A stretch of DNA of 64,000 nt, from NCBI GenBank assembly GCA_014193315.1, contig BJHS01000010.1, positions 1 through 64,000 of the forward strand, given 5' to 3'. Within the stretch, counting starts at the first letter, position 1; the number at the start of each line of letters is the position of its first letter. The position numbers and the translations under genes are program-made. The notes beneath the pieces were generated by a model. It was not told where the DNA came from. It did not search any database and saw only the letters and a program-made list of their open reading frames with translations. The stretch is from Verrucomicrobiota bacterium. Its GTDB lineage: Bacteria; Verrucomicrobiota; Verrucomicrobiia; Opitutales; UBA953. Positions 3,141-42,825 of the stretch are shown here, piece after piece.

Positions 3141-4127
3141 ATGGGTCGCGTGCTTTCCTCGTTCCTCCTTTTAGGTCTGTTGCTGTCCGGGTGCGCGACG
3201 ACCGAGATCGACCCGCGGGTGCCGCTGCAGATCGAGCCGGTGATGAAGGTCGTGCAGACGGCGCCGGCGAGCTATGAGCTGCAACTGGCGTCGCGGACGT
3301 TCGTGCCACTGTCGGGCCAGGGCCCGAAGGTCCGGCTGGTGGCGGCAATCCACATCGCGGACCGGGCGTTTTACCAGCAGGTCCAGGGGCTGCTGGATGC
3401 GGACGCCGTGGTGCTCTACGAGGGCGTGACCACTAAGAAGGATGATTTCAAGAAGCAGGGGCCGGGGCGGCGACCCGACGCACTCTACACCAAGGTGGCC
3501 GACGCGCTGGGGTTGATCTCGCAGTACGAGGGGATCGACTACCGCCGGGAGCATTTCCACAACGCCGACCTGACGCAGGGCGAGATGCTCGCGCGCCTGC
3601 GGGGGGACACGCTGACGACCCCGAAGCCGGAGGGTCCCGACCAGGTGCTGGGGCCGCCCGCCAAGGAGGCCGAGGCGAAGTATAACCTGATGATGGAGGC
3701 GATGCAGGGCAATGGGCTCAGCGGGGTGCTGGCCGACCTCGGGCTGGCGTTCATCAAGTACAATGCGCGGCTCCGGACGACGGTGCTCCTGGGGATCATC
3801 GGGACGGACCCGGCCGGCAGTGAGAAAGAAATGGCCAAGAAGCTCGGCGGCGAATCCGGCAAACGCATCGCCAAGCTCATCCTCCAGGAGCGCAATCAAG
3901 AGGCGATCTCCGGGCTCCGGCGATTCGTGGGGCAACGCCAGACCGGCGAGACGGTGGCGCTCTTCTACGGGGCAGCGCACCTGGACGCGATCCAGGACGC
4001 GCTCATCCGCCGCTTTGGCTATGTGCCCGAGAAGACGGAGTGGCTCGTGGCGATGCACGCCGATGGCGAGGCGGCCGGGCTGACGCCAGCGCAAGCGCTG
4101 GAAGCGTTGAAGGGAGTGAGGAAGTAG
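3141..4127 (+). CDS. TraB/GumN-like family lipoprotein
   Basis: Lipobox LLLSGCATT; IHIADRAFYQQVQGLLDADAVVLYEGV resembles the TraB family N-terminal motif. Confidence 0.65.
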   Translation: MGRVLSSFLLLGLLLSGCATTEIDPRVPLQIEPVMKVVQTAPASYELQLASRTFVPLSGQGPKVRLVAAIHIADRAFYQQVQGLLDADAVVLYEGVTTKKDDFKKQGPGRRPDALYTKVADALGLISQYEGIDYRREHFHNADLTQGEMLARLRGDTLTTPKPEGPDQVLGPPAKEAEAKYNLMMEAMQGNGLSGVLADLGLAFIKYNARLRTTVLLGIIGTDPAGSEKEMAKKLGGESGKRIAKLILQERNQEAISGLRRFVGQRQTGETVALFYGAAHLDAIQDALIRRFGYVPEKTEWLVAMHADGEAAGLTPAQALEALKGVRK

Positions 4128-4128
4128 G

Positions 4129-4734
4129 GGACAGGATTAGTTGACCAGTTGACCGGCTGGCCAGTTGACCGGAGGAGAGGCAGTAGGGGAAGCAGAGCTA
4201 GCTGGCCGGCTGGCAAGTTGGCCGGGGGGTAAGGGAGGCTGAGGGAGAGACAGGTGTTAGGTAGTGGGGAGTAGGTGGTAGGTAGTGGGGATTGGGGATT
4301 GGGGAATAGGTGCTGGGAAGTGGGGGGTCTAACACCTACAGCCTAAATCCTAAGAACTATTCATGAGGTCAGGCACATCATCGCTACGCGAGATGAAGCC
4401 AGTGGAGAGTGCGGCGAGCTGGCCGGCTGGCCAGTGGGCCAGTGGACAAGGGAGAGCCAGGTGTTAGGGAATAGGTGGTAGGGAGTAGGTCTTCGGAAGT
4501 TGGGCCGAATCCACTGCGTCTCCCTACTTCCCATTTCCTAATCCCTAATTCCTAGCTCAACCCCTACCCGGCGCGCGGAGCGCGCTGAGAGACAACTAGG
4601 GCAGCACGCGGTGCTGTCCCTACCCGCGCGCTCTCCCTTTCTCTCGTCGGGCTTCGCATCTTTCTGAGCCTCTGAGCCTCCGGACCTCTCATTCCACCCC
4701 TTGCCCACGTGTCAACTGGCCAGCTTGCCAGCTG
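4129..4734. repeat. Mosaic intergenic repeat element, copy A
   Basis: gttgaccagttgaccggctggccag arms, ggtgttagggaataggtggtaggg module, REP-like hairpin, and tccactgcgtctccctacttcccatttcctaatccctaattccta module. About 250 bp are near-identical to copy D. Confidence 0.85.
4365..4400 (+). repeat. REP-like hairpin gaggtcaggcacatcatcgctacgcgagatgaagcc
   Basis: GGC/GCC, CATC/GATG and CGC/GCG paired blocks; near-identical at 5862 and 9698. Confidence 0.6.
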
Positions 4735-4736
4735 AT

Positions 4737-5678
4737 TTATTTCCAAATCCACTCGAGGGCGGAGGGGAGCGTGGCGGCGACGGCCTTGCCGTCGACGTGG
4801 CCGGCTTTCTTGCAGAAGATGTATTGGTAGGCGTAGCCTTTCTGGGCGAGGACGGCGGCCATGCGCTCGTTGGCCATGACCCAGTTGTGCAACGAGGCTT
4901 CGTCGCGGTCCCAGCCGTTGTCCTTCTCGCCGACCTGCAGCCAGAGGCGGAGCGGTTTCTTGTCGGTCTTCGCGATCAGGTGTTCGTGGTATTCCCACGC
5001 GCCGTGCGGCGTCTTGGGGTCGGTCGGGTATTGCTGGTCGACGAACGTGCCGGAGTAGCTGAGCACGCGGCGGTAGAGATCAGGGTGGTACCAGGCCATC
5101 GTGAGGGCCGCAGCCGCGCCGGAGCTGCCGCCCATCGCGGCGCGTTCGTCGGGTTTCTTGGTGAAGACGACGCCCGTCTCCTTGGTCACGCGCGGCAGGA
5201 CCTCCGCCTCGATGAACTCGGCGTACTTGCCCGACAGCGTGTCGTACTCGAGGCCGCGCTGGCTGCCCTTGCTATCACCGCCACCCGACTCGACCATCAC
5301 GGCGACCTGCACCGGGACGCGCTTAGCGGCGATGAGGTTGTCGAGCGCGGTCGCGACCCGCTTGGTGTACCACGGGCCGTCGGTGACCAGGAGCAGACGC
5401 ACCGGCTGGCCGGCGACGTATTGGGCCGGGATGTAGACCTGGACCTTGCGCTTGTAGGGGACGACCTCCCCCGGCTTGTTCTTGGCGATGCCCGGGTAGG
5501 CCGGGCTCTCGGTCGAAAGCATGGTGAACTCCTTGATCGTGCCTTTGGGCACGCCGGCCTTCGCCGTCATCTCCGTTGCCGGCGTGTAATCCGGCCCGAT
5601 GGCCGAGTCGTTCGGGCCCGAGGCGCCGAAGACCGCGACGGCAAGTGGTAGGAGGGCGAGGAAGGAGAAGCGGAGCAT
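4737..5678 (-). CDS. Secreted alpha/beta-hydrolase esterase (putative esterase/feruloyl-esterase-like family)
   Basis: Signal peptide MLRFSFLALLPLAVAVFGASG; VRLLLVTDGPWY, GGSSGAAAALTMAWYHPDLYRRVLSYSG, KAGHVDG. The start is placed at MLRF because upstream ORF sequence lies in a repeat. Confidence 0.8.
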   Translation of the reverse strand: MLRFSFLALLPLAVAVFGASGPNDSAIGPDYTPATEMTAKAGVPKGTIKEFTMLSTESPAYPGIAKNKPGEVVPYKRKVQVYIPAQYVAGQPVRLLLVTDGPWYTKRVATALDNLIAAKRVPVQVAVMVESGGGDSKGSQRGLEYDTLSGKYAEFIEAEVLPRVTKETGVVFTKKPDERAAMGGSSGAAAALTMAWYHPDLYRRVLSYSGTFVDQQYPTDPKTPHGAWEYHEHLIAKTDKKPLRLWLQVGEKDNGWDRDEASLHNWVMANERMAAVLAQKGYAYQYIFCKKAGHVDGKAVAATLPSALEWIWK

Positions 5679-5689
5679 GGGACGGGGTG

Positions 5690-5945
5690 GAAGGGGGACG
5701 GGGAGTACAGAGGACGGAATGCAGAGTACGGAGTGCAGAGGGCCGAGTCGAGGGGATGCAAAGTTGATTTGCTGATTAGTTGGCCAGAGGGCCAGAGGGG
5801 GAGCAGAGCTAGCTGGCAGGCTGGCCGGTGGGCCGGGGGGCAAGAGACGAGGCACGGCAAAGGGGTCAGGCACATCATCGCTGCGCGAGATGAAGCCAGA
5901 CCCCATGCCGGCGCGCTGCGCGCGCTCTTAACCAGACGCCAGGGG
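5690..5945. repeat. Mosaic intergenic repeat element, copy B
   Basis: agagtacggagtgcagag module (reverse complement of gcactccgtactccg in copy C), gattagttggccagagggccagaggg, REP-like hairpin. Confidence 0.75.
5862..5897 (+). repeat. REP-like hairpin ggggtcaggcacatcatcgctgcgcgagatgaagcc
   Basis: Conserved GGGGTCAGGC head plus bulged palindrome GGC.CATC.CGC/GCG.GATG.GCC. Confidence 0.65.
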
Positions 5946-5976
5946 GTCAACGACCCGCTGGCGAGCGGGACGATAT

Positions 5977-8805: not shown

Positions 8806-9075
8806 GAGGAGGACAGAGCACAGAGTGCTGAATCGAGGGGGAGTCGAGGGAGAGACAGGTGCTAGGGAATAGGAAGTAGGTCGTAGGATCGAGTCCACTG
8901 CATCTCCCCACTTCCCATTTCCTAATTCCTAGATCTGCCCCTACCCGCGCGTGAAGCGCGCGATATGAGGCTACAGGTACGCTCGATGCAGCACTCAGCA
9001 CTCCGTACTCCGTCGTAAAGAGACAACAGGTGCGCCTCTGGCCAACTGGCCAACCGTTCAACGGGTCAACTCCCC
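8806..9075. repeat. Mosaic intergenic repeat element, copy C
   Basis: About 200 bp nearly identical to copy E (agagacaggtgctaggg ... gctacaggtacgctcgatgcagcactcagcactccgt ... ctggccaactggccaaccgttcaacgg.tcaactc). Confidence 0.85.
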
Positions 9076-9518: not shown

Positions 9519-9521
9519 AAA

Positions 9522-10068
9522 GTTAGTTGATCGGTTGATTAGTTGGCCAGAGGGAGAGGGGCAAGGAAACCGGAGTTGACCCATTGACCCGTTGACCGGT
9601 TGGCCGGAGGGGAAGTGATTAGGGAGTAGGTGGTAGGGAATAGGTGCTGGGAAGTGGGGGGCTAACACCTACAGCCTAAATCCTAAGACCTATGCATGGG
9701 GTCAGGCACATCATCGCGGCGCGAGATGAAGCCAGGGGAGAGTGCGGCGAGCTGGCCGGCTGGCCAGTGGGCCAGTGGACAAGGGAGAGCCAGGTGTTAG
9801 GGAGTGGGGAGTAGGGTCGGGTCCACTGCATCTCCCTATTTCCCATTTCCTAATCCCTACTTCCTGGATCCGTCCCTACCGGCGCGCGGTACGCGCGCGA
9901 TTTTAGAGGCTACCGGTACGCTCGATTCAGCACTCGATGCAGCACTCTGTACTCCGTCGAAAAGAGACAACAGGTACGCCCCTTGCCCACGTGTCAACTG
10001 GCCAGCATGCCAGCTATGCCTCTTTCCACCCTTGCCCACGTGTCACCTGGCCAGCGTGTCCCCTAGCC
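9522..10068. repeat. Mosaic intergenic repeat element, copy D
   Basis: Shares the long central block with copy A and the cttgcccacgtgtcaactggccagc.tgccagct end; the end motif is duplicated within D. Confidence 0.85.
9698..9733 (+). repeat. REP-like hairpin ggggtcaggcacatcatcgcggcgcgagatgaagcc
   Basis: Near-identical to copies at 4365 and 5862. Confidence 0.65.
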
Positions 10069-11418
10069 TCAGGCCAACTTCTTCAACTCGCCGGTGCTGT
10101 CGCCGAACTGGACGTCGCGGATGTCCATGCGGTTGAGCAGGGAGACCCAGAGGTTGTTGATCGGGGTCTCCTTACCGTACTGGATGCTGCGGCCTTGGCG
10201 GATCGTGCCGCAACCGCGGCCGGCGAGCAGGATGGGCAAGTCGTCGTGGTTGTGCCGGTCGCCGTCGCCGTTGCCGGAGCCGTAGACGATCATCGAGTGG
10301 TCGAGCAAGGTGCCGTCGCCTTCCTTCACCGACTTCAGCCGGGTGAGCAGGTAGGCCAACTGCGTGGCGTGGAATTTATTGATGTCCTGGATCTTCGCCA
10401 GCTTCACCGGGTCGTGGCCGTGGTGCGAGATGCTGTGGTGACCGTCGCGCACGTTGATGAACGGGTAGGAGCGGTTGCTCCCCTCGTTGGCGAAGACGAA
10501 CGTGCACACGCGGGTCGTGTCGGTCTGGAAGGCCACCACCATGAGGTCGGCCAGCAGACGGAGGTGCTCCTCGTAGCTCTGCGGGATGCCCGTCGGGGCC
10601 TTGAAGCCCGCGGGGGGCTTGGGCTGGGCGGTCGTGCCCGCCTTGGTGATGCGCCCTTCGAGCTCGCGCACCGCCGTGAAATACTCGTCGAGCTTGCGCT
10701 TGTCCTCGGTCCCGAGGCGCACGTTGAGCTCGCGGAAGTCGTCGCGCACCGCATCCAGCACGCTCTTGCGGGCGGCGTCGCGGCGGGCGCGCTCGACGTC
10801 GGTGCCCGAGCCGAAGAGGCGCTCGAAGATCAGCTTGGGGCTGATCTCCTTGGGCATCGGCTGGTTGGCGGAGCGCCAGGAAAGGTTGGACTCGTAGATG
10901 CAGCTGTAACCCGAGTCGCAGCCGCCGGCCATCTTGCTGGCGTCGGCGCCGATCTCGAGGGAAGCCAGGCGCGTGCGGTCGCCGAGGCGCGCGGCCGCGA
11001 TCTGGTCGGCGGAGATGCCGACCTTGATGTTGGCGCCGTCGGTCTTGCGCGGCTGGGCCCCGGTGAGGAAGGCCGACATCGCGCGGGCGTGGTCGCCGCC
11101 GCCGTCGCCATGGGCGCGGGCCTTGTCGGCCGTGAGCCCGTTCAGCAGGGAGAAATCATTCCGCAGCTCGCCCAGCGGCTCGAGGATCGCGGGCAACTTG
11201 GACGGCAGCACGCCCTCCGTCGGCACCCGCCAGCCGGCCATGTTCACGCCATTGGGCACGTAGAGGTAGGCCATCCGGTTCGGCGCGGCTTGGCTGACCG
11301 GCGTGTTGCCCGCGGCCCAGCTCGTCTGGACGCCCATCTGTTCGAGCCAAGGCAAAGCCAAGGAGACACCCAGTCCCTTGAGGACGGTGCGGCGCGTGAG
11401 CTGGTGGTCGGTACGCAT
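10069..11418 (-). CDS. DUF1552 domain-containing protein
   Basis: Tat-like N-terminus RRTVLKGLGVSLALPWLEQMG; LLNGLTADKARAHGDGGGDHARAMSAFLTGAQP; typical neighbour of the DUF1592 protein. Confidence 0.88.
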   Translation of the reverse strand: MRTDHQLTRRTVLKGLGVSLALPWLEQMGVQTSWAAGNTPVSQAAPNRMAYLYVPNGVNMAGWRVPTEGVLPSKLPAILEPLGELRNDFSLLNGLTADKARAHGDGGGDHARAMSAFLTGAQPRKTDGANIKVGISADQIAAARLGDRTRLASLEIGADASKMAGGCDSGYSCIYESNLSWRSANQPMPKEISPKLIFERLFGSGTDVERARRDAARKSVLDAVRDDFRELNVRLGTEDKRKLDEYFTAVRELEGRITKAGTTAQPKPPAGFKAPTGIPQSYEEHLRLLADLMVVAFQTDTTRVCTFVFANEGSNRSYPFINVRDGHHSISHHGHDPVKLAKIQDINKFHATQLAYLLTRLKSVKEGDGTLLDHSMIVYGSGNGDGDRHNHDDLPILLAGRGCGTIRQGRSIQYGKETPINNLWVSLLNRMDIRDVQFGDSTGELKKLA

Positions 11419-11427
11419 GGCGGGGGG

Positions 11428-13755
11428 CTACTTCTTCTTAGAGGTATTTGACACGGGTTCAACCTGCGATGTTCCGCGGCGCAGGCGGAAGGGATCGCTC
11501 TGGACCACGGCCAAAATCATGGTGGAAAAGCGGTCTTGGCCGGCGCTGGTGGCCTCGGCCACCTTATCCACGGCGGGTTCGTCGTAGTACTCGAGCCCCC
11601 GGCCCAGCCCGTAGGTCATCAACTTGCCCGAGAGGTTACGGACGAACTTGTCGCGGTCCGACTTCAAGAGGGTCTTGAACTGGGCCGTCGTCGCGAAGCT
11701 CCGCCCGTCGGGCAGGCGGCCCGCCGGGTCGATGGGCACCCCTTCGTCCTGCGTGCGCACCTTGCCGATGGCGTCGAACTTCTCGAAGGCGAAACCGATC
11801 GCGTCCATGCGCGTGTGGCAGGACGAGCAAACCGGGTTGGCGCGGTGCTGCACCATGCGTTGACGGAGCGAACCCGTGAGTTGGTGCTGCCCCTCCAAGG
11901 TCGGGACCTCCGCGGGGGCGGGGGGCGGCGGCGCGCCGAGGATCTGCTCGAGAATCCACTTACCGCGCTTCACGGGGGACGTACGGGTCGGGTTGGACGT
12001 CGCCGTCAAGATGCTCGCCTGGGTGAGGATGCCACCGCGGTCGCCCTTCGGCAACGTGACGCGGACGAATTCGCCGGGACCGCGCGACGGCGTGTCATAG
12101 ATCCCATAAAGCTTGGCCAGGGGGCGGTCGAGGTAGGTGAAGTCCGCGTCGAGCAGGTCGAGCACGCTGCGGTCCTCGCGCACGATCTCGGCGAAGAACA
12201 ACTCGGTCTCCTTCATCATGGACGCGCGCAGCTGCTCGTCGAACTCCGGGAATTGCGTCTGGTCGGGCGAGACGAGGGCCAGGCGGCGGATCTGCAGCCA
12301 CTGCAGCCCGAAGCCCGTGACCAGGTACTGCGAACGCGGGTCCTTGAGCATGCGGCGCGTCTGCGCCGCGAGGTTGGCGGCGAGCTTGCCCTGGTTGGCC
12401 AGGCCGAACAGCTCCTCGTCGGGCATCGAGCCCCACAGGAAATACGACAGGCGGGAGGCCAGGACGAAATCGCCGACCGGGTGCGCGTCGGCCGCGAGCG
12501 GCTGCGGGTCGGGCTCCGTGCGGTAGATGAACTTCGGCGACGCCAGCACGGCCGTCACCATGGCCTGCGCCCCGTGTTCCCAGCTCCCCCCGGCGGCCTC
12601 GGCCGTCGCGAAGGTCTTGACGTAGCGCTGGAACTCGGTCGGCGTGACGGGGCGGCGGAAAGCGCGGCTCGCGAACCAAGTCACCATCGCGCGCGCCCGG
12701 GCGTCGCCGGTCTTGCCCTCGGCGAAGCCAGCCAAGCGACGCTGCAGCTCGGTGCGCGTGTCGGTGGGTCCGAGCAGTTGATAGCGGTAGGTCCCCAGTT
12801 TGCGCGAGCCGTTGCCGACGTCGGTCGGGGCGTTGAGCCAAGTCACCGCCAAGGCATGCTTGCCGGCGGACAGCCGCACCTTGGCGTCGACCTTCTCAGC
12901 GCCGCGGCTGGTGGTCTTAAGCTTGAGCGTCTGCGTGCCGACGACCTTGCCATCGACGACGAGGTTCACGTTGGCGGGCGGGTCGCCCTGGTTACCGATG
13001 GAAACCAGGTGGGCACGGAAGAGGTATTCGCCGTCGCGCGGGGCCTCGAACTCGGCCGTCAAGGTCGGCGCGTTGAAGACCCGCATCTGATCCTCGCTGC
13101 GGCCGCGCGGGAGCATCTTATAACCATCGACGTTGAGCACATCGAGGTTCTGGGCCGCGGTCGGCACGGCCTTGTCGGCGATGAGCTCGGCCGCGGCCAT
13201 GAAACGCTCGAGGTGGACCGGCGAGAACGAGAGCACGTCGCCGATATTGTCGAAACCATAGCCCGTGTCGTCGCTCGGGAAGTCCGTCGAGAAATTGCCC
13301 TCGAGGTAGCAAAGGTCGCGGATGGTATTGTTGTACTCGGCCCGGTTGAGCCGCCGGATCGTCACGGTACCCGGGTCGACCTTGGCCTTGGCGACGGCCT
13401 TGCCGAGCAGCCCGCGGATGCCGACGTTGAGGGCCGTGACCTCGGACGGGATGGGCCGCTCCTTGCGGGCGGCGGGCGGCATCTCGCCGGCGACCACTTG
13501 GTTGACGACCTCGCGCCAGAGGCGCTGGTCCTGGTAGAAGCGGGTGTCGTCCTTGAAGGCCTCGAGGTTCAAGTGCCCCTTGGCCTTGTCCGCGTTGTGG
13601 CAATCGTAGCAGTATTTCTCCAGGATCGGCTGGACGTCCTTGCGGAAATCCTGCGCCCCGGCGGAGGGGCCAAACCCGACCAGGACGGCGAGTCCGACGA
13701 AGCCGGACCGCAGTCTCCAGAGGCCAGTGGTCAGGCGTGTCCGCATGGGATTCAT
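11428..13755 (-). CDS. DUF1592/DUF1588/DUF1585/DUF1587 domain protein with cytochrome-c-like CxxCH
   Basis: DVQPILEKYCYDCHNADKAKGHLNLEAF; TIRRLNRAEYNNTIRDL; PVCSSCHTRMDAIGFAFEKFDAIG. Confidence 0.88.
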   Translation of the reverse strand: MNPMRTRLTTGLWRLRSGFVGLAVLVGFGPSAGAQDFRKDVQPILEKYCYDCHNADKAKGHLNLEAFKDDTRFYQDQRLWREVVNQVVAGEMPPAARKERPIPSEVTALNVGIRGLLGKAVAKAKVDPGTVTIRRLNRAEYNNTIRDLCYLEGNFSTDFPSDDTGYGFDNIGDVLSFSPVHLERFMAAAELIADKAVPTAAQNLDVLNVDGYKMLPRGRSEDQMRVFNAPTLTAEFEAPRDGEYLFRAHLVSIGNQGDPPANVNLVVDGKVVGTQTLKLKTTSRGAEKVDAKVRLSAGKHALAVTWLNAPTDVGNGSRKLGTYRYQLLGPTDTRTELQRRLAGFAEGKTGDARARAMVTWFASRAFRRPVTPTEFQRYVKTFATAEAAGGSWEHGAQAMVTAVLASPKFIYRTEPDPQPLAADAHPVGDFVLASRLSYFLWGSMPDEELFGLANQGKLAANLAAQTRRMLKDPRSQYLVTGFGLQWLQIRRLALVSPDQTQFPEFDEQLRASMMKETELFFAEIVREDRSVLDLLDADFTYLDRPLAKLYGIYDTPSRGPGEFVRVTLPKGDRGGILTQASILTATSNPTRTSPVKRGKWILEQILGAPPPPAPAEVPTLEGQHQLTGSLRQRMVQHRANPVCSSCHTRMDAIGFAFEKFDAIGKVRTQDEGVPIDPAGRLPDGRSFATTAQFKTLLKSDRDKFVRNLSGKLMTYGLGRGLEYYDEPAVDKVAEATSAGQDRFSTMILAVVQSDPFRLRRGTSQVEPVSNTSKKK

Positions 13756-14048: not shown

Positions 14049-14702
14049 ATGAAAGCCTCCCTTCAGATTTTCACCGCGCTCGTGCTTCTGGGGGGTACCG
14101 TCGGCACCCGCGCGCTGGACTTGGACGGCCTCGTCAAAAACTCTCCTTTCGGCCAGGCCCCGGAAAAGTTGGCCATCGGCGAAGCCAAGCCGGGCACCTT
14201 GGAGTTCCGCGGCATGTACGTCGACAATGGGGTCGCCTATTATAGCGTCTATAACTCGATCACCAAGCAGTCCGCGTGGATCGCCGAAGGCGAAGTGCCG
14301 GCGAACCTGCCGGTGACCATCGTGGGCTTCGACGCCGCCACGGAGTCGCTCATCGTCGAGAACGCCGGTCAGGCCGTGAAGCTACCGTTGCGCGTCCCCG
14401 TGATTTCCGCGACGCCCGCCACCCCCGTGGCCCCTCCGGTGCCGGTCGTCGCCGCTCCCATCGCTGGCGCCGTGGCCCCGCAATTCGGCGGGGGTGGCTT
14501 CGGCAATGGCCAACAACCTTCCCCGGAGCAAATCCAAGCCTTCCGCGACGAGATGCGGAAGCGCTGGGGCGAACGCGGCCAAGGCGGTCCCGGGGGCGGT
14601 GCTGGTGGGGGCGAAGGCGCCCAGCCCACCGAACTCATGTCCCGCACCAAAGGCGAGGGCAGCGCGACCAAGGGCGAACGCCCCTCCAAGGGCTCGCGCT
14701 AA
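14049..14702 (+). CDS. Hypothetical secreted protein at head of type II secretion operon (GspC-like position)
   Basis: Signal-like N-terminus MKASLQIFTALVLLGGTVGTRALD; LVKNSPFGQAPE; directly upstream of gspG. Confidence 0.5.
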   Translation: MKASLQIFTALVLLGGTVGTRALDLDGLVKNSPFGQAPEKLAIGEAKPGTLEFRGMYVDNGVAYYSVYNSITKQSAWIAEGEVPANLPVTIVGFDAATESLIVENAGQAVKLPLRVPVISATPATPVAPPVPVVAAPIAGAVAPQFGGGGFGNGQQPSPEQIQAFRDEMRKRWGERGQGGPGGGAGGGEGAQPTELMSRTKGEGSATKGERPSKGSR

Positions 14703-14726
14703 GCGGCTCCCGACTTTCCCCGTCCC

Positions 14727-15173
14727 ATGACCACGTCCCCGTCCCAACGCCGTCGCGACCGTCGCAGCGGCTTCACCCTGCTCGAGGTGCTCATCACCAT
14801 CGCCATCATGGCGCTGCTGGTCGGGGTCGTTGTGCAGAACCTCGACAAGCTCTTCGGCCAAGGCCAGGAAGGCGCGACCAAGCTCTTCGTGAAGTCCTCG
14901 CTCGAGGCCCCGCTCATGAGCTACCGCACGCACCTGGGCGACTACCCATCCACCGAGGAAGGCCTCAAGGCCTTGCTCGTCGCCCCGGAAGGCAAAGCCG
15001 ACAGCTGGCGCGGGCCCTACGTGAAGGTCTCCGGTGGCGCCCTCCCCAAGGACCCGTGGAGCGAGGAGTACCAATACGTCTACCCCGGCAAGCATAACGA
15101 AGGCGGCTACGATCTCTTTTCCAAGGGCAAGGACAAGATGCCGGACACGGCGGACGACATCGGAAACTGGTGA
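14727..15173 (+). CDS. gspG: Type II secretion major pseudopilin GspG
   Basis: RSGFTLLEVLITIAIMALLVGVVVQNL; LGDYPSTEEGLKAL; WRGPYVK; DPWSEEYQYVYPGKHNEGGYDLFSKGKD. Confidence 0.93.
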   Translation: MTTSPSQRRRDRRSGFTLLEVLITIAIMALLVGVVVQNLDKLFGQGQEGATKLFVKSSLEAPLMSYRTHLGDYPSTEEGLKALLVAPEGKADSWRGPYVKVSGGALPKDPWSEEYQYVYPGKHNEGGYDLFSKGKDKMPDTADDIGNW

Positions 15174-15703
15174 GCGCGGCCCTCCAGCAGCGCCCTCAGC
15201 GCGCCGGTCGCGGCGGCTTCACCTTGCTGGAGATGCTGCTGGTGATCGGCCTCTTGAGCATGCTCGCGGGCGTGCTCGTGGCTGGCTCCGCCTCGCTGCT
15301 CAAGGGCACAGCCCGCTCGGACCCCGAGGACGCCCTGCTCGCGCTCATGCAAACTTGGCGCCGCCAAGCCGTCGAACGCGGCGCGACCCTCGAGGTCGAG
15401 CCGTTCAAGTCGCTCGACGACCCAGACCGCCAAGGCTACCGCTGGGACAAGGACGGCGACGAGGAGCACGAAGAACTGCTACCCGCCCTGGAAGGGGTGA
15501 AAGTCCAATTGCTCGGCCCCGAGGTCGACGGCGCCATCCTCCTCGGCGGGCAAGCCGTCGAGCAGCCGCTGAACCGCCTGCGCTTCTTCCCGGACGGGAC
15601 ATGCGAGCGCATGCGCCTCGAGGTGCTGCGCAACGAAGCCCGCCGCCTCACCCCGATCGACCCCCTGACGTGCGCCGTGTTGCCGTCCATCGACGCCAAA
15701 TGA
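15170..15703 (+). CDS. Type II secretion minor pseudopilin, GspH-like
   Basis: GRGGFTLLEMLLVIGLLSMLAGVLVAG prepilin signal; operon position. Confidence 0.75.
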   Translation: MSAALQQRPQRAGRGGFTLLEMLLVIGLLSMLAGVLVAGSASLLKGTARSDPEDALLALMQTWRRQAVERGATLEVEPFKSLDDPDRQGYRWDKDGDEEHEELLPALEGVKVQLLGPEVDGAILLGGQAVEQPLNRLRFFPDGTCERMRLEVLRNEARRLTPIDPLTCAVLPSIDAK

Positions 15704-16452
15704 ACCGCCGCGGCTTCACCCTTATCGAGGTCCTCATCAGCCTCGCGATGTTCGCCCTCGCCGCGATCAGCCTCGGGGCCGCGTACACGAACGTGGTGCT
15801 CAGTCGCCAAGCCCTGCGCATCAACGACACCGAAGTCGACGACCTCGCCCGCGCCCGCGCCGCGCTCATCGAAACCGTGAACTTCGACGACGTCGAAAAG
15901 GGGGGCGAGATCCACCTGCCCGGCGACCGCCTGGCGACCTGGCAAGGCGAGATCGAAGCGACGAGCGTGAGCGACCTCTTCTCCGTCAAGCTGACGGTCG
16001 AGATCCAGAATGCCGATGGCACCGACGCCAAGCCCCTCACGGAGACCCGCCTGCTCCTGCGGCCTTCGTGGTCGATCCCCGCGGATCGGCAGAAAATCCG
16101 CGACGCGGCCAAGCAACGCCTCGCCACGGAACGTGGGTACACCGAAAACAGCGGCGGCGACTACACGGCGGTGAAGAGCGCCCCGACCCCCTCCAATAAA
16201 ACGTCCTGGACGCACGCGACGGCGGGCAACGCCGGCGGCAACAAGCCCGGCGTGGCGAAGGGTGGCAACACCGGCAACACGGGGAAAGGCGGCAACACCG
16301 CGGGCACGCCGACGCGCGGCGGCGCCACGGGCAAGGGTGGCCCCGGCGGCGGTAACGCGGGCGGCAACACCGGCAAAGGTGGCACCGGCGGGCAAGGCGG
16401 CAACACGCCCCAGCGCCCGGCGACCCCGGCCCCCAAGCCCGTCATCCAATGA
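15700..16452 (+). CDS. Type II secretion minor pseudopilin, GspI-like, with Gly/Asn/Thr-rich tail
   Basis: MNRRGFTLIEVLISLAMFALAAISLGAAY; ATGA overlap with the previous gene. Confidence 0.75.
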   Translation: MNRRGFTLIEVLISLAMFALAAISLGAAYTNVVLSRQALRINDTEVDDLARARAALIETVNFDDVEKGGEIHLPGDRLATWQGEIEATSVSDLFSVKLTVEIQNADGTDAKPLTETRLLLRPSWSIPADRQKIRDAAKQRLATERGYTENSGGDYTAVKSAPTPSNKTSWTHATAGNAGGNKPGVAKGGNTGNTGKGGNTAGTPTRGGATGKGGPGGGNAGGNTGKGGTGGQGGNTPQRPATPAPKPVIQ

Positions 16453-17093
16453 ACGCCGCCCGACCCAGTCGCGGCTTCACGCTGCTCGAGACCTTGATCT
16501 CGCTGGCGCTGCTGGCGGTGCTGATGCTCACGATCAACACGTTCCTCTTCTCGATGACCGAGCTCTGGGGTGGCAAACGCGACCAGCGGCTCTTCGACCA
16601 GCATGTGCGCGCCGCGAGTCGCCTCGTCCGCGAGACGATCGAGATGGCCACCATGGCCCCGGGCGCCGCCGGCGTGGCAATCAAGGAAGTGGCCGACGGC
16701 CTTGGCTCGACCGAGCCGCGGCTGAGTTTCCTCCTCGCCGACGCGGGTCGCTTGGCCGACTGGCCGGAGCACCCGCTGCCCGACGTCGACTTCTCGCTCT
16801 TTGTCGACCCGGAGAAAGGCCTGGCGCTGCAATGGCAATCGCGTCTCGAGATCAACCGCGACCGGACGGACCTGCACGACACGATCCTCTCGCCGTTCGT
16901 GAAGTCGCTCGCCTACGAGTACTACGACACGGACCTCAAGACCTGGAAGCTGGAGGAGGAGCCGGTCCATGACACCGGCGGCACCGCCTGGAAAAAGCCG
17001 GCCCGGATCCACCTGCGCTTCGAGCGCGGCACCCTCAAGCAGGAGGTCGTGCTGGACCTCCCCATCAAGCGCCCCGGCGCCTCCCGCCCATGA
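16449..17093 (+). CDS. Type II secretion minor pseudopilin, GspJ-like
   Basis: SRGFTLLETLISLALLAVLMLTINTFLFS; operon position. Confidence 0.75.
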   Translation: MNAARPSRGFTLLETLISLALLAVLMLTINTFLFSMTELWGGKRDQRLFDQHVRAASRLVRETIEMATMAPGAAGVAIKEVADGLGSTEPRLSFLLADAGRLADWPEHPLPDVDFSLFVDPEKGLALQWQSRLEINRDRTDLHDTILSPFVKSLAYEYYDTDLKTWKLEEEPVHDTGGTAWKKPARIHLRFERGTLKQEVVLDLPIKRPGASRP

Positions 17094-18331
17094 GCCGACC
17101 CTCGCGCCGCCGCGGCTCCGTCATCATCGTCGTCCTGGTGCTCATCGCCCTGGCCTCGCTGCTGCTCGCCCGGTTCATGGACGACAACACGCTCGAACTC
17201 TCCATGGCCTCGCGCGACGCCGACCGTCGCCGCCTGCGCGCCGACGCCCAGTCCGAGCTAGAGCTCGCGCTCGCCGTCATGGCCGAAATCCGCGCAATCG
17301 ACCTCAACAAAATCCACCACCCGGCGCAGGGCTTCGATGACCCGCACGCGTACGCCGGCTTCCCGCCGCGCGATGGCCTCGACGTGAAGTTCGATTTCGA
17401 GGACGAGAGCCGCAAGCTACCCCTGCCCAACCTGGACAAGAATACGCTGATCAAGCTGCTCTACGCGCTGGGCCTCGAGCAGAAGGACGCCGAGCGCGTG
17501 GCCGACGCGCTCATCGGCTGGACGAACAAGCGTTATGAACCGCTCGAGGAAGAGGCGACGGATGCCGCCTACGAACGGCGCACCCTGGCGCACCGCCCCG
17601 CCCGCCGACCCCTGCGCTCGTTCGAGGAACTGCGCTCGATCGGGGTCGCCAATGAGTTCTTCTTCGACGAACAGGGTCACCAGACCCCGCTCTACGATGC
17701 CTTCACCTCGCTGGTGAGCCTCTACGCCTTCGGCGACACGAACATCAACACCGCGGAGGACAGCCTGTTGTTGGCGCTCGGGCTCGACGAGCATCAGGTC
17801 TCGCTGATCCGCGACAAGCAGGACGTCATGAAGAAGCGGGTCTCGGGCACCCCGCCTTATTTCCGCGTCACCCAGGAAGTCCGCACCCTCGTCGGCGGCG
17901 GCGCCCCGCTGCAGCCGTTCGACGACGAGTCCCACCTCATGTGGGTCCGGGCCACCGTCAAGCAGGGGCTCGCCCAGTGCCGCGTGGGCGCCCTCGTCAT
18001 GCTCCGCGATGACGTGACCTTCCCCGCCGCCGCCGCCAACCCCGACGAAGACCCGACCGCGGCCACTGGCCTCGGGGCCACCAAGGCCATCCCGACCATC
18101 AAGACCACGGGGAACTCGACAGGCTCCACGGGGTCGGTTAAGTCGGGCAACACCTCCCTCACCCCCGGGGTCGTCCCCCCGGCCAGCGTCGGCCAAACCT
18201 CCCTCGGCGGACGCACCCGGAGCAACTCCCTCAACTACCCTTTCACCATCCTGGCCTGGACCGAAGACAACGGCCCACCCAAAAAAGCCCCCCAAAAACA
18301 TGAGCTCCCTTCTGACCCGCCTGCGCGATAA
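17090..18331 (+). CDS. gspK: Type II secretion protein GspK-like
   Basis: RRGSVIIVVLVLIALASLLLARFMDDN; SFEELRSIG; NINTAEDSLLLALGL. Confidence 0.8.
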   Translation: MSRPSRRRGSVIIVVLVLIALASLLLARFMDDNTLELSMASRDADRRRLRADAQSELELALAVMAEIRAIDLNKIHHPAQGFDDPHAYAGFPPRDGLDVKFDFEDESRKLPLPNLDKNTLIKLLYALGLEQKDAERVADALIGWTNKRYEPLEEEATDAAYERRTLAHRPARRPLRSFEELRSIGVANEFFFDEQGHQTPLYDAFTSLVSLYAFGDTNINTAEDSLLLALGLDEHQVSLIRDKQDVMKKRVSGTPPYFRVTQEVRTLVGGGAPLQPFDDESHLMWVRATVKQGLAQCRVGALVMLRDDVTFPAAAANPDEDPTAATGLGATKAIPTIKTTGNSTGSTGSVKSGNTSLTPGVVPPASVGQTSLGGRTRSNSLNYPFTILAWTEDNGPPKKAPQKHELPSDPPAR

Positions 18332-19427
18332 AACCCAGCCCCAGGCGGCCGCGTTGTTGCCCGGCAACCGCTTCTTCGTGCGGCGCATCCCGCTCGAAAG
18401 TCCCGACGTGGCCGCGCAGGTGAACCTCGCCCTCGAGGCGCTCTCCCCCTTCCCGCTCGAGCAGATGCTCGTGGGGCATCTCGTCGCCGCCGACGGGCAG
18501 TCGGCCCTCGTGTACGCCGCGCACCGCCGCCGCTTCACGCCCGAGGAAAGCCTCGCGTGGCCGGAAGATTGCCAAGTCGTCCCCGAGTTCCTCGCGCTCT
18601 GTAGCCATAAGCCGGCCGCGGAAGGCGTGGTCGTGCACACCGGCGAAGAGCGCCTCACCGCCCTCGCTTGGAACGCCGGCGACTCCCTCCCCGCCGCAAT
18701 CGTCGTCGCCGAACTCGCCGACGTGACCGGGCCCGAGATCGCCGCCGAGGCCGCGGCCCGCGCCGGCCTCGCGCCCGGCTACACCGTCGAGAGCCTCACC
18801 GGCAAACTCGGCGGCGAACTGCGCGAGAACGCGCTGTGCCTATCCGCGGAAGGTGGCGTGCCGCACCAACTCTCCAAGAAGCACCTCGATGTCGCCGACA
18901 TCCGCGATACCGACTTCCTCGACGCGCGCCGCAAGAAGGAGCAGGCCAACCTGGTGCTCTGGCGGCTGACCCAGGCCTCGATCGCCACGCTCGTCGTCGC
19001 CCTCCTCCTCGACGTCGTCGCCCTCGGGGTGCGCCTGCGCACCAGCGACCTCGACGTGAAGAACGAGGTGAACGCCGCGAAGGTGGCCGACATCGATGCC
19101 GCCCAGGCCATCACCTCCCGGATCAACGAACTGGGCGTCAAGCGCCCGTTGCCGCTGGAGATGCTCGCGCTCATCAACGAGCACCGGCCGGCCACGCTGG
19201 AGTTTCAGAGCGTGACCTGCAAATCCAACGTCGTGATCGAGATCGGCGGCCGCACCTCCAACGCCGCCGACATCGGGGTCTTCGAGCGCGAGCTCGCCGC
19301 GCTGCCGATCATCGCCAGCGCCGTCAGCCGCGACATCCGCACCCGCGAGACCGCCGCCACCTTCACCCTCGTCATCACCTTCAAACTCGATGCGCTCCGC
19401 AAGGCCATCGCCCCCAAACAACAATGA
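18300..19427 (+). CDS. GspL/PilM-PilN-like T2SS component
   Basis: Operon position between GspK and GspM-like genes; single TM segment LWRLTQASIATLVVALLLDVVALGV. Confidence 0.6.
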   Translation: MSSLLTRLRDKTQPQAAALLPGNRFFVRRIPLESPDVAAQVNLALEALSPFPLEQMLVGHLVAADGQSALVYAAHRRRFTPEESLAWPEDCQVVPEFLALCSHKPAAEGVVVHTGEERLTALAWNAGDSLPAAIVVAELADVTGPEIAAEAAARAGLAPGYTVESLTGKLGGELRENALCLSAEGGVPHQLSKKHLDVADIRDTDFLDARRKKEQANLVLWRLTQASIATLVVALLLDVVALGVRLRTSDLDVKNEVNAAKVADIDAAQAITSRINELGVKRPLPLEMLALINEHRPATLEFQSVTCKSNVVIEIGGRTSNAADIGVFERELAALPIIASAVSRDIRTRETAATFTLVITFKLDALRKAIAPKQQ

Positions 19428-20269
19428 AAGCCCTCTTCTTCGGACTGAACGCCCGCGAGCGCCTGATGGCGCTCCTCGCGCTCGGCATCCTCGCCTTCCT
19501 CTGGGTCACCGCCGCTTACGGCCGCGTCAACGAGGTCTGGGCCAACTGGACCGACCTCGAGAAGAATGCCGTCTTCCATCGCGCCCGCTTCGCGGAAGAG
19601 AAGAAGATCCGGGCCGACGTCGCCGAGGCGGTCAAGGGGCTCGACGAGGGGCGGGGTTACGACAAGGCCCGCCTCGTCGCCGAAGCCTACGCCGCCGCCA
19701 AGGAGGCCGGGCTCTCCCCCAGCACCGAGGCGCCCACCACCGTGAAGGCCGACCGCTTCTCCGTGCACTCGCTCCAGATGAGTTGCCGCAAGGCCGACAT
19801 GGCCAGCTTGGTCAAATTCTACGAGGCCATCCGCCCGCGCGCACCCTACCTCGCCATGGGCAACCTCACCATCCAGTCCGACCGCGGCAAGGATGCCACC
19901 GTGACGCTGAACATGCAAATCACCGCCCTCGAGTTGATCGGCGCGGCCCCGGTACCCGTCGCCCCGGCCGCCCCGGCGACCGGCGCGAAGCCGGCTGGTG
20001 AGCCCGCGGCTCCGACCACTCCGGCGATAACCGAAGGCGCCGCCCCGGTGAAAACCGAAGCCGCCCCGACGACCCAGACCGCCAAGCCCACGGCCACGGA
20101 AGCGAAGCCGGCGACCGCCACCGACGCGACCACGGAGGCGAAGCCCGCCGACGCGACCACGCCCCCGAAGACCGAAGCCGGCACGCCGGTACAGACGGCG
20201 ACCGTTACGGTCACTCCAGCCACTCCGGCTGCTCCGGTCGCTGCTCCGACCCCGCCCGCGGCGAAGTAA
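19424..20269 (+). CDS. GspM-like T2SS component with Ala/Pro/Thr-rich tail
   Basis: N-terminal TM NARERLMALLALGILAFLWVTAAYG; operon position. Confidence 0.55.
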   Translation: MKALFFGLNARERLMALLALGILAFLWVTAAYGRVNEVWANWTDLEKNAVFHRARFAEEKKIRADVAEAVKGLDEGRGYDKARLVAEAYAAAKEAGLSPSTEAPTTVKADRFSVHSLQMSCRKADMASLVKFYEAIRPRAPYLAMGNLTIQSDRGKDATVTLNMQITALELIGAAPVPVAPAAPATGAKPAGEPAAPTTPAITEGAAPVKTEAAPTTQTAKPTATEAKPATATDATTEAKPADATTPPKTEAGTPVQTATVTVTPATPAAPVAAPTPPAAK

Positions 20270-20277
20270 GGGCTCGG

Positions 20278-20600
20278 AGATTTAATCGGTGGGCCAGAGG
20301 GCCAGAGAGGCAGGGGAGAGTTGATCGGTTGATTAGTTGGCCGGAGGGAGAGACAGGTGTTAGGGAATAGGTCGTAGGATCGAGTCCACTGCATCTCCCC
20401 ACTTCCCATTTCCTAATCCCTAATTCCTAAATCTGCCCCTACCCGCGCGTGAAGCGCGCGATATGAGGCTACAGGTACGCTCGATGCAGCACTCAGCACT
20501 CCGTCGTAAAGAGACAACAGGTGCACCTCTGGCCAACTGGCCAACCGTTCAACGGATCAACTCTTGTTTCGGTACCCCTCTGGTCAACCGATCAACTCCG
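20278..20600. repeat. Mosaic intergenic repeat element, copy E, with terminal inverted arms
   Basis: Left arm gttgatcggttgattagttggcc (20320) pairs with right arm ggccaaccgttcaacggatcaac (to 20561); interior near-identical to copy C. Confidence 0.85.
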
Positions 20601-20637
20601 CTTCCTTCTGTTCCCCCAAGACCCCTGTCTTGACGAC

Positions 20638-21870
20638 CTAGAACCTGAAACTCGAGCTGACCTCGAAGACGGCGGAGACGATCGCGTACGCGATGAAGGC
20701 GACGAAGGAGAAGGCGGCGGTCAGGACGCCGGCGGAGATCGTTTGCGAGACGGTGCCGAGCCACTTATCGAGGGAGGCCCGGTAGGAGCGCGCGATGTCG
20801 CGCAGGCCTGGGGCGAGGTTGCCGGTCTGCTCGGAGACCGCGATCCGATCGAGCAGCAAGTCCTCGAAGTAACCGGTCTTGGCCAGCGCGCGGGAAAGGC
20901 TTTCGCCCTCGAGCACCCGGTCGGTCGCCGCATGGAGCTGCGCGCGCATGGCGCGGTTCGCCGCGGTCTTCTCCGCCAGACGCAAGGCCTCGGAGGTGGT
21001 GATCCCATTCTCGAGAAGCACGGCGAGCGTGTGGCAGAAGTTGAGCACGGAGACGCGCTTGACGAAGGTGCCCACCAGCGGGATGGCGAGCAGTTGCTCG
21101 TCGGTCTGGAGGCGACCGGCGTCGGTGCGGCGCAAATGCTTGATCACGAGGGCGGCGACGCCGATTCCCAGCAAGCCCAGCGGCCCGACCCACTTCAAGA
21201 CATCGGCGATCCAAATCAGCAACTTGGTCGCCAAGGGCAACTGGCCGCCCAGGGAGTCGAGCAGGGTCTTGAGGCGCGGCAGCAGGAAGAGGACGAAGAA
21301 CGTGACGACGAAGAGGGCGACGACGCAGATGAAGCTCGGGTAGGCGAGCGCGCTGATAAGCTTGCGCCGGAACTCCTTCTGCTCGGTCGCGTGCGTGATG
21401 AGGCGCTCGATGACATCGAGGATGTTGCCGGTGGCCTCGCCCGCGGCGATCAGGTTGACGGTCTGGCCATCGAAGACCCGGGGGTAGGCGGCCATCGCCG
21501 CCGAGAGGTTCTGGCCCTCGCCGAGTCGCGACCACAGGCCGGCGCACAGGGTGCGCAGCGGGCCCTTCTGGGTGCGGTTGGCCAGCATACGCAGCGCCTC
21601 GCCCGCGGACATGCCGCTGCGCACCAGGTCGGCGATCGATTCGAGGAAAGGCAGGAGCTGCTCAGCGGTCGGCTCCGGGTCAGGGCTGCTGGAGCCGCGC
21701 GTCCGGGCCTCTTCTTTGGCCCGACCAGCCGCCCCGCTCTCCGTGACCGCCGTGGGCCGGAGCCCGCGCGCCTGCAACCGACGCAACGCCTCGCGGCGGT
21801 TCGGGGCCTGGATCGAGCCCTCGGCCGCCGCCCCTTGGGCATCGCGGGCGCTGTAGTTGAAGGCGGGCAT
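20638..21870 (-). CDS. gspF: Type II secretion inner-membrane protein GspF
   Basis: MPAFNYSARDAQGAAAEGSIQAPNRREALRRL; two repeats of TLCAGLWSRLGEGQNLSAAMAAYPRVF / LAPGLRDIARSY type. Confidence 0.92.
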   Translation of the reverse strand: MPAFNYSARDAQGAAAEGSIQAPNRREALRRLQARGLRPTAVTESGAAGRAKEEARTRGSSSPDPEPTAEQLLPFLESIADLVRSGMSAGEALRMLANRTQKGPLRTLCAGLWSRLGEGQNLSAAMAAYPRVFDGQTVNLIAAGEATGNILDVIERLITHATEQKEFRRKLISALAYPSFICVVALFVVTFFVLFLLPRLKTLLDSLGGQLPLATKLLIWIADVLKWVGPLGLLGIGVAALVIKHLRRTDAGRLQTDEQLLAIPLVGTFVKRVSVLNFCHTLAVLLENGITTSEALRLAEKTAANRAMRAQLHAATDRVLEGESLSRALAKTGYFEDLLLDRIAVSEQTGNLAPGLRDIARSYRASLDKWLGTVSQTISAGVLTAAFSFVAFIAYAIVSAVFEVSSSFRF

Positions 21871-21875
21871 CGGGA

Positions 21876-23567
21876 CTACTCGTTGGAACTCAGGTTGCGG
21901 ACCAGCTCGTCGAGGGACGTCAGGCCCGCCGTCACCTTGACCCAACCCGCGCGGGCGAGCGGACGCATGCCCTGCTCGATCGCTTTGTCGGTGAGCTCAC
22001 GGTTGCTGACGCGGCCGACGATGAGGTCGTGCAACGGCTTCGGGTGGAAAATCTCGAAGACGCCGACGCGGCCGCGGTAACCGGTGTTGCGGCACTTGCG
22101 GCAACCGACGGGCTGTCGGAGGGTCTTGATGCCGGCCAATTCCGGGGCGCCCATGCCGAGGGCCTCGAGCGCGGGGAGGACGCGGGCGGGGTCGACAGGA
22201 ACGTCCTTGGCGCAATCCAGGCATAAGCGACGCACCAGCCGTTGGGCGATGACCAGCTCGACGGCCGAGGCGACGAGGAACGGCTCGACGCCCATGTCGA
22301 CGAGGCGGGTGATGGCCCCGGGCGCGTCGTTGGTGTGCAAGGTCGAGAAGACGAGGTGACCCGTCAGCGACGCGCGGATGGAAATCTCGGCGGTCTCCAG
22401 GTCGCGGATTTCGCCGACCATGATGACGTCGGGGTCCTGGCGGAGCGTGCTGCGGAGGGCGTTGGCGAAGGTCAGGCCGATCTCGGCCTTGGTCTGCACC
22501 TGGTTGGCGCCGGGCACCTCGTACTCAATCGGGTCTTCGATCGTGACGATGCGCAGCTCCGGCGAGTTGATCTCGCGGAGGAACGCGTTGAGGGAAGTCG
22601 ACTTACCGGAACCGGTCGGGCCGGTGACGAGGATGATACCGTGCGGGTAATCGAGGACCTTGCGGACCAGGGCTTGCTCGTCGGGCGTCATGCCGATCCG
22701 ATCCATGTCGTAGGCTTCCTTGCGCTGGTTGAGCAAACGCAGGGAGACGGACTCGGCGTAGATGGTGGGGATGGTCGAGACGCGGATATCCAGGACGTTC
22801 TTGCCGTCGCGGAAATTGATGCGGCCGTCCTGCGGGAGGCGGCGCTCGGAGATGTTGAGGCGCGCCATGATCTTGAGGCGCGAGATGATGGCGTCCTGAA
22901 AGCGGGCCAGGTTTTCCGGCAGCGGCACGGCGACGAGCAGGCCGTCGATGCGGTAGCGGATACGGAGGTGCCCTTCCTGCGGCTCGAAATGCACGTCCGT
23001 CGCGCCCTCGGCCACGCCTTGGGACAGGACATCGGTCACGAAGCGCACCACGGCGGCGTCTTGGTCGGCCTCGCCATCGGTCGGCTGCTCGGCCTGCGCC
23101 GGCAAGTCCTGCCCCTCGTCGTCGAGGCTGCCCGAACCCACGCCGTAGTTATCGTTGATCAGCTGCGCCACGCGCTCGGGCGGGGCGAGGAACCACTTCG
23201 GGCGCCGCGGGGTGAAGGTGGCGACCCAATCCATCGTTGCGGCGTCCGGGGGGAGCGCGGTGACGAGGTTCAAACGGCCCTCGACCGAACCGGCGAGGAC
23301 CGTCGGGACGACCTGCGCCTCGGCGGCGATGCGGGCGGGCAAAATCTTGAGTCCCTCGGGATCGATGGCCGGCTCCTCGAGCACCTCGAGCCCGGTCAGG
23401 CGGGAGAGCTCGGCGAGCAACGCGGCTTCGTCGAGGTTCAGCACCTGCGCGAGCAGTTTGAAGCGGGCTTCGCGCGGCGCCTCGGCGAAGGTCGCGCGCC
23501 CCTCGTCGCCCAACCTCTCGGCCAAGGCCGGCGGCAAGCCGTGCTGGTCTACGGTCACCATGGTCAC
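21876..23567 (-). CDS. gspE: Type II secretion ATPase GspE
   Basis: Walker A VTGPTGSGKSTSLNAFL; Walker B DPDVIMVGEIRDLETAEI; four-Cys zinc motif CLDC...CRKC. Confidence 0.95.
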   Translation of the reverse strand: MTMVTVDQHGLPPALAERLGDEGRATFAEAPREARFKLLAQVLNLDEAALLAELSRLTGLEVLEEPAIDPEGLKILPARIAAEAQVVPTVLAGSVEGRLNLVTALPPDAATMDWVATFTPRRPKWFLAPPERVAQLINDNYGVGSGSLDDEGQDLPAQAEQPTDGEADQDAAVVRFVTDVLSQGVAEGATDVHFEPQEGHLRIRYRIDGLLVAVPLPENLARFQDAIISRLKIMARLNISERRLPQDGRINFRDGKNVLDIRVSTIPTIYAESVSLRLLNQRKEAYDMDRIGMTPDEQALVRKVLDYPHGIILVTGPTGSGKSTSLNAFLREINSPELRIVTIEDPIEYEVPGANQVQTKAEIGLTFANALRSTLRQDPDVIMVGEIRDLETAEISIRASLTGHLVFSTLHTNDAPGAITRLVDMGVEPFLVASAVELVIAQRLVRRLCLDCAKDVPVDPARVLPALEALGMGAPELAGIKTLRQPVGCRKCRNTGYRGRVGVFEIFHPKPLHDLIVGRVSNRELTDKAIEQGMRPLARAGWVKVTAGLTSLDELVRNLSSNE

Positions 23568-42635: not shown

Positions 42636-42646
42636 GGCGGGAGCTC

Positions 42647-42816
42647 GTTGATCAGTTGACCCGTTGAATGGTTGGCCAGAAAGACAGCCGGCGAGGCCCG
42701 GAGGCTCAGCGGCGCTGGAGAAGCGCGGACCAGCGGGGCCGCTGATCCCTGCCGTCGCGCGGGCACGCAAAGGGAGGCAACCGAGCGCTTCTGGCCAACG
42801 GATCCAATGGTCAACT
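42647..42816. repeat. Mosaic intergenic repeat element, short copy F, with terminal inverted arms
   Basis: Left gttgatcagttgacccgttgaatggttggccag pairs imperfectly with right ctggccaacggatccaatggtcaac. Confidence 0.7.
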
Positions 42817-42825
42817 CCTTTTGGG

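Follow-up and report, generated by a model that had tools for sequence, protein, structure and literature searches.

The window, i.e., the whole stretch of 64,000 nucleotides that was analyzed, lies on contig C10 of a MAG-like assembly of 2.36 Mb in 44 contigs. Genes were called with a simple caller, which yielded 90% coding sequence with sensible boundaries in the window. The gaps between genes hold nested mirror-image patchworks, composed of REP hairpins, transposase-linked hairpins, and degenerate 7- and 8-nt tandem repeats. Block A (4128–4736) fills a convergent spacer from stop codon to stop codon, flanked by gene calls on both sides, i.e., a gene at 3141–4127 (+) and an esterase gene (PF00756) at 4737–5678 (−). 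Block B (5679–5976) is a tandem spacer between co-oriented genes; its module-bearing part (approximately 5700–5960) includes a period-7 GAGTACR array (5703–5740) and two period-8 arrays (5762–5787 and 5811–5836). Block C (8810–9075) sits in a 635-bp spacer with divergent adjoining gene calls, and comprises nested period-7 arms (8862–8880 and 8906–8932), a CGCGCG palindrome, GAGTRC arms, and a reverse period-8 array (9038–9071). Blocks D (9519–10068) and E (20270–20637) are convergent spacers that are likewise occupied from stop to stop. A further spacer with inverted period-8 (octamer) arms at 42636–42825 was the basis of the comparison of orthologous loci. Regarding the neighboring genes, a DUF1552 (HXXSHH) gene adjoins a gene for a PSD/PSCyt multidomain cytochrome protein (PF07631, PF07627, PF07626, and others) at 10069–13755, and the gene run at 14049–23561, with repeated GFTLLE-type starts and a T2SSF protein at 20638–21870, resembles a type II secretion/pseudopilin cluster.

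Block A begins with a degenerate period-8 array of AGTTGACC/GGCTGGCC that forms a 5′ arm (4139–4172, +), followed by a second period-8 array of the GCTGGCCG type (4200–4225, +) and the G-rich strand of a degenerate period-7 TAGGNNN array (4252–4310, +; array score 19.5). A GGGGTCAG-type hairpin, in the copy with GAGGTCAG (4365–4402, +), precedes another period-8 array (4417–4452, +), a 5′ arm whose partner is the 3′ arm at the end of the block (4697–4734, −). These two arms enclose the period-7 array TAGGGAATAGGTGG as inner 5′ arm (4459–4489, +), an opposite-strand period-7 array as inner 3′ arm (4520–4554, −), a GGCGCGCGGAGCGCGC palindrome (4570–4585), and a GTAG-tagged REP, which matches the pattern GGTAGGGACAGCACCGCGTGCTGCCCTAG exactly on the minus strand (4596–4624). 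The arm AGCTGGCCGGCTGGCCAGTGGGCCAGTGGACAAGGG (4417–4452) is identical to the reverse complement of approximately 4698–4733 at 29 of 36 positions (score 37, with a shuffle maximum of 27), which bears out the mutually inverted blocks of the original prediction. In the same way, the TAGGGAATAGG-type arrays at 4252–4310 and 4459–4489 face their own complement at 4520–4554.

A stretch of about 250 bp (approximately 4305–4560) had been predicted to recur in Block D. The repeat is real and slightly wider: positions 4302–4585 align with 9636–9896 at 86% identity over 284 columns (E = 1e-91), including an ungapped core of 93% identity (4323–4483 and 9656–9816). Block C corresponds to 20344–20563 of Block E (89% over 234 columns), and a spacer on contig C30 to Block D (74% over 297 columns). 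Subsets of the modules also occur in blocks B, C, and E, in dozens of other spacers of the genome, and throughout the genus, so that the predicted mosaic of nested inverted repeats extends genome-wide and genus-wide. To speak of copies of one element is too simple, since the spacers join their modules in differing nested orders and there is no single repeated unit. No single insertion sequence explains the whole, as had been claimed, and an Rfam scan of the window returned only two tRNAs above the gathering score and no match in the mosaic. No standard REP had been recognized as explaining the whole mosaic either; two of the individual modules are of recognizable kinds, i.e., the GTAG-REP at 4596–4624 and the GGGGTCAG-type hairpin at 4365–4402.

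For the quantitative comparisons, 397 kb of own-genome sequence was analyzed, comprising the window and stretches around matches. As the stretches outside the window were picked around matches of Block A, repeat-rich spacers are favored in the counts below. All assemblies are drafts in which repeats can be collapsed, and the p-values are descriptive, many tests being exploratory and chosen after the data had been seen.

The REP module takes the form of a GTAGGG head followed by a 9-bp stem, with GTAG at the end of a 20–40 bp palindrome, as found at 4596–4624. On this formal ground, the module is assigned to the GTAG-REPs. Seventeen copies of its subtype are present in the own genome, compared to none for a reversed control pattern. 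A hairpin follows the GTAGGG head in 23 of 147 cases in the own genome and in 216 of 417 in the genus, where the proportion is inflated because many loci were fetched by the REP pattern; with permuted heads, the count was 0–1, and the way of fetching therefore does not explain the hairpins. Among the genus loci, 48 different stems are combined with this single head. There is very strong evidence that the stems are kept by complementary change between subfamilies. In 41 sequences, 86.7% of the cells were paired and 103 cells had changed on both sides, giving a covariation score of 0.633 versus 0.174 in shuffles, which was reached by none of 500 shuffles and collapsed upon sliding by one column. 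The RAYT loci L034–L037, L184, and L263 are flanked by GGGGTCAG palindromes and revealed no GTAGGG hairpins. In genomes that bear REPs, a cognate RAYT gene bordered by the same REP is a frequent but not constant feature, and a diverged or unassembled RAYT of this kind may be present here.

The second type of hairpin in the mosaic ends in GGGGTCAG...GACCCC and flanks RAYT/TIRYT transposase genes both in the genus and in the own genome. Block B contains a complete GGGGTCAG...CAGACCCC hairpin (5862–5904, +), the ends of which fit GGGGWSAS, and Block D a hairpin of this type at 9698–9735. Four close copies were found in the genome, as well as relatives with other inner stems, e.g., GGGGTCAGGCACCATCATGC...GCATGCTGAAGCCAGACCCC. 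RAYT-like genes (PF01797) of the genus are bounded by GGGGTCAGRC...GTCTGACCCC palindromes, and GGGGTCAG palindromes flank RAYT genes in G014, G006, G017, G018, G021, and the own genome. A search of the own genome with the Pfam profile PF01797 (Y1_Tnp) gave no match. The idea that the mobilizing enzyme is absent was nevertheless rejected, since a homolog search found an intact-looking RAYT-like frame of 331 aa on contig C21 (locus L263, about 960–2125). Its product is 69% identical to the PF01797 protein of G021 and contains the motifs ...SNHFHLLL... (HFH) and ...YVHLNPVRAG.... The frame is flanked by GGGGTCAGGCC palindromes of roughly 100 bp, which are themselves nested (GGGGTCAGGCCGTT... around TGTTAGTTTA...TAAACTAACA). 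A tyrosine HUH transposase gene (PF01797 homolog) with such ends is hence present in the own genome. The inner sequences differ, with GGGGTCAGGCCGTT... at the ends of the own RAYT and GGGGTCAGGCACATCATCGC... in the window hairpins. As only the outer GGGGTCAGGC is common to both, the window hairpins are linked to RAYT ends by type and are not copies of the C21 element. Two other observations concern possible element remains. Contig C4 carries a remnant of another RAYT element (L154, 714–887), which derives from the 3′ end and is 97% identical to a longer copy in G014. In addition, a stretch of 84–131 bp with GGGGGTGGTTTGGTGGTTGGGCAACCCCCCGAG is common to three spacers at 92–100% (L165, 770–1385 and 2946–3485; L153, 13548–13981) and is perhaps another mobile element end.

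Degenerate tandem arrays were strongly enriched in the 156 sampled spacers of the own genome, with 14 period-7 arrays (0.2 expected from shuffles) and 16 period-8 arrays (0 expected). Their units include TAGGNNN, GAGTNCN, GCGGTTA, GTTGAYCN, GCTGGCCN, and CTCTGGCC. Ungapped inverted repeats numbered 49, compared to 4 in shuffles. Relatives within the genus also carry period-7 and period-8 arrays, and two genomes from other families of the same order have arrays with different units, namely CTTCNGG/CTGACRT in G036, and TTCCTAA together with 9-mers CGCAAAGAN in G030. The arrays of these two genomes are inverted as well, with the units TCAGATGTCGG and TTCCTAATTCC and the 9-mers CGCAAAGAN. Arrays were not found in the sampled stretches of five other families of the order. 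Inverted pairs were most common in convergent spacers (16/28), followed by tandem (16/63) and divergent spacers (5/40). Where long inverted pairs share a spacer in the own genome or the genus, 18 were nested, 13 lay side by side, and 3 crossed or otherwise overlapped. In 43 cases, an arm's own partner ranked first of 72, which fits hairpin-templated homogenization. Within-locus likeness of the octamer arms of the own genome was not significantly above between-locus likeness (p = 0.14). Family membership thus accounts for a large share of the identity between arms; because octamer arms from different loci resemble each other almost as closely, common descent of the arm modules contributes as well. 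For TAGG-type arms, the likeness was locus-specific (p = 0.0003) in a set of only seven that includes REP hairpins.

The spacers further follow a common polarity. In own-genome spacers of 120–900 bp, GC skew was higher in the left than in the right half in 85 of 101 cases (binomial p = 8e-13), which applies to convergent (19/26), tandem (42/48), and divergent (24/27) spacers; in the window alone, all 16 of 16 spacers run from G-rich to C-rich. With the genus included, the left half was more G-skewed in 224/275 spacers (46/55 convergent, 110/139 tandem, and 68/81 divergent). The corresponding numbers were 62/110 for other families of the order, pooled, and 6/15 for one 50-kb piece of E. coli K-12. 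Strong inverted pairs were present in 72 spacers; G outnumbered C in the 5′ arm of 69 of them, and C outnumbered G in 2. The period-7 arrays, which are degenerate, G-rich, and intergenic like the published heptamers, had their G-rich strand facing inward in 6/6 cases. Since the same skew is seen in convergent, tandem, and divergent spacers, gene orientation does not set the polarity; what sets it is the palindromic build, combined with a bias toward G in the leading arm. Theories of bacterial interspersed repeats must explain this orientation-independent G-first rule.

A spacer that is syntenic across the genus reveals how the layers are replaced between species. It follows the PF04371 gene (42636–42825 in the window) and separates a convergent pair of this gene and a Cys-rich gene. 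The own genome has one octamer arm pair at this position. G013 has three nested pairs (octamers, CTCAAAGGGAAACCGG, and a 63-nt TTGTCAGGTCTCGGGTCTCGG pair, from outside to inside), and G001 has four (octamers, followed by CTCAAAGGGGAACCGGAGACCGG, GGGTGACGGGTGTCAGCCAC, and TCGGCCATCGGCC). A CTCRAAGGG pair with a different center is present in G011 and G004, while two GTAGGG-headed palindromes face each other at the center in G008, G012, and G016. Arms of GAGTAC/GATTAC occur in G021, G023, and G017, and GAGTAT in both arms in G015. The spacer measures only 51 bp in G002, and G018 and G006 have none. In most species compared, the adjoining protein is 91–94% identical to that of the window, which, given the differing spacers, indicates fast spacer turnover. 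A second locus, at the T2SSF gene, is likewise filled in some species and spacer-less in others. The spacer comparisons yielded neither a target-site duplication nor a cleanly dated empty/filled pair. With genomes of more than 20 species in the genus, spacer growth can be traced layer by layer at one gene pair.

Folding as RNA gave z-scores of −4.9 for Block A and −4.5 for Block D, in line with the predicted potential to form large multi-stem structures. G-U pairs were not in excess over A-C pairs among the arm mismatches, which comprised 81 G-U and 84 A-C overall, and 39 G-U and 36 A-C in tandem spacers read in the direction of the transcript. Due to this lack of a G-U bias, RNA-level selection, and with it the notion that the individual copies function as folded RNAs, is not supported. 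An RNA-level function is further weakened by the short or missing spacers at orthologous positions.

We consider it probable (roughly 0.6) that spacers at gene ends are repeatedly colonized by palindromic mini-elements, and are shaped by slippage and hairpin-templated homogenization, in places where such DNA is tolerated. Three kinds of colonizers would contribute, i.e., GTAG-tagged REPs, GGGGTCAG-ended hairpins of the RAYT/TIRYT (IS200/IS605-like HUH) family, and arms of 7- and 8-nt tandem units. New palindromes would tend to land inside or beside older ones and thereby form nested layers. Replication slippage may expand the 7- and 8-mers and could thus be the origin of the arrays, and hairpin-templated repair or template switching would keep both arms of one spacer alike. 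The DNA would be mostly tolerated or selfish and gather at the 3′ ends of genes, where harm is least, with any effect on termination or mRNA ends being secondary. However, simple insertion alone fails to explain the G-first arms (69/72) or the skew of divergent spacers (68/81). A more tentative possibility is a general DNA-level process in the genus that builds spacers as concentric G-first palindromes, in which inverted tandem-armed modules arise or insert centrally and the arms are matched by hairpin-templated synthesis. If so, most spacers would read G-rich and then C-rich on both strands, whatever the orientation of the genes, and the Xanthomonas heptamer rule would be one instance of a widespread but still unnamed way in which spacers grow.

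Bidirectional transcription terminators or mRNA 3′-end stabilizers, i.e., RNA hairpins under selection, would account for the enrichment of long inverted pairs between convergent genes (16/28), the stop-to-stop extent of blocks A, D, and E, and the low folding z-scores. We regard them as unlikely nonetheless, because the mismatches are as often A-C as G-U (36 and 39 in tandem spacers, 84 and 81 overall), divergent spacers exhibit the same polarity (68/81), and the structure is missing from the orthologous spacers of some congeneric species. A single MITE-like composite element of approximately 250–600 bp, with octamer terminal repeats and moving as a whole, would make blocks A and D two recent copies. 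The alignments of A with D (284 columns, 86%), C with E (234, 89%), and the C30 spacer with D (297, 74%) are consistent with this, as is the resemblance of octamer arms between loci. This explanation is improbable, though, given that the shared stretches begin and end inside modules and vary from pair to pair, that octamer-armed spacers otherwise have unrelated interiors, and that most spacers hold only some of the modules. A simple MITE with fixed ends was rejected, since interiors and boundaries disagree between loci. Arrays of binding sites or G-quadruplexes with a chromosomal or regulatory role, whose inverted order would reflect a function at the spacer borders, would fit the skew rule (224/275) and the G-rich strand reading inward from both flanks, as it does in the available text on Xanthomonas and Nostoc heptamers (PMC4692102). 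Such a role is also unlikely: many unrelated units (GTTGAYCN, TAGGNNN, GAGTNCN, GCGGTTA, and CTCTGGCC) share only period and polarity, unlike the site of one protein, and the units change between species at one spacer. Repeated colonization of gene-end spacers remains our preferred reading.

BIMEs and the mosaic regions of Neisseria are spacer mosaics of short inverted repeats and, in this respect, resemble the patchworks described here. We know of no description of either with concentric layering, tandem-array arms, or G-first polarity. Both are mentioned in a study on GTAG-tagged REPs, which comprise 24 families and are abundant in the verrucomicrobium O. terrae (BMC Genomics 2013, PMC3733652). 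The REPs of our genus share with them the terminal GTAG, the short stem, the subfamilies with complementary changes, the short loops, the position between convergent or co-oriented genes, and the presence of RAYT genes in the genome (PMC3733652). They differ in that 48 stems share one GTAGGG head, that the REPs lie inside layered spacers with tandem-array arms, and that none of the inspected RAYT loci is flanked by this REP. The nesting has a precedent in REPs inserted within other palindromes, i.e., GTAG-23 in T. roseum and CGTC-1 in H. neapolitanus (PMC3733652). The palindromes ending in GGGGTCAG resemble the TIRYT/TIRtron repeats with GGGGWSAS (PMC3733652) in bordering RAYT-like genes and in being dispersed as solitary hairpins too; they differ in lying within mosaic spacers and in the variation of their inner stem.

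The heptamers GGGAATC and GGGGAYT of Xanthomonas and Nostoc, with 70 inverted pairs in Xcc according to the available text (PMC4692102), correspond to our arrays in being degenerate, of period 7, intergenic, arranged in inverted pairs, and G-rich on the strand reading inward from either border. The same text gives the inward-facing rule without a mechanism. By contrast, our genus combines numerous unit families with periods of 6, 7, and 8, which are nested with REP and TIR hairpins and are replaced from one congeneric species to another. In the literature on Opitutae intergenic tandem repeats and nested RAYT palindromes, we found nothing relevant. The concentric assembly, the coexisting period-6, -7, and -8 families, and the genome-wide polarity appear to be undescribed for this group in the searchable literature. 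Every ingredient belongs to a described kind (REP/BIME, TIRYT repeats, or heptamer arrays), and one architecture joins REPs, TIRYT repeats, and degenerate heptamer arrays, all of which are poorly understood kinds of repeats.
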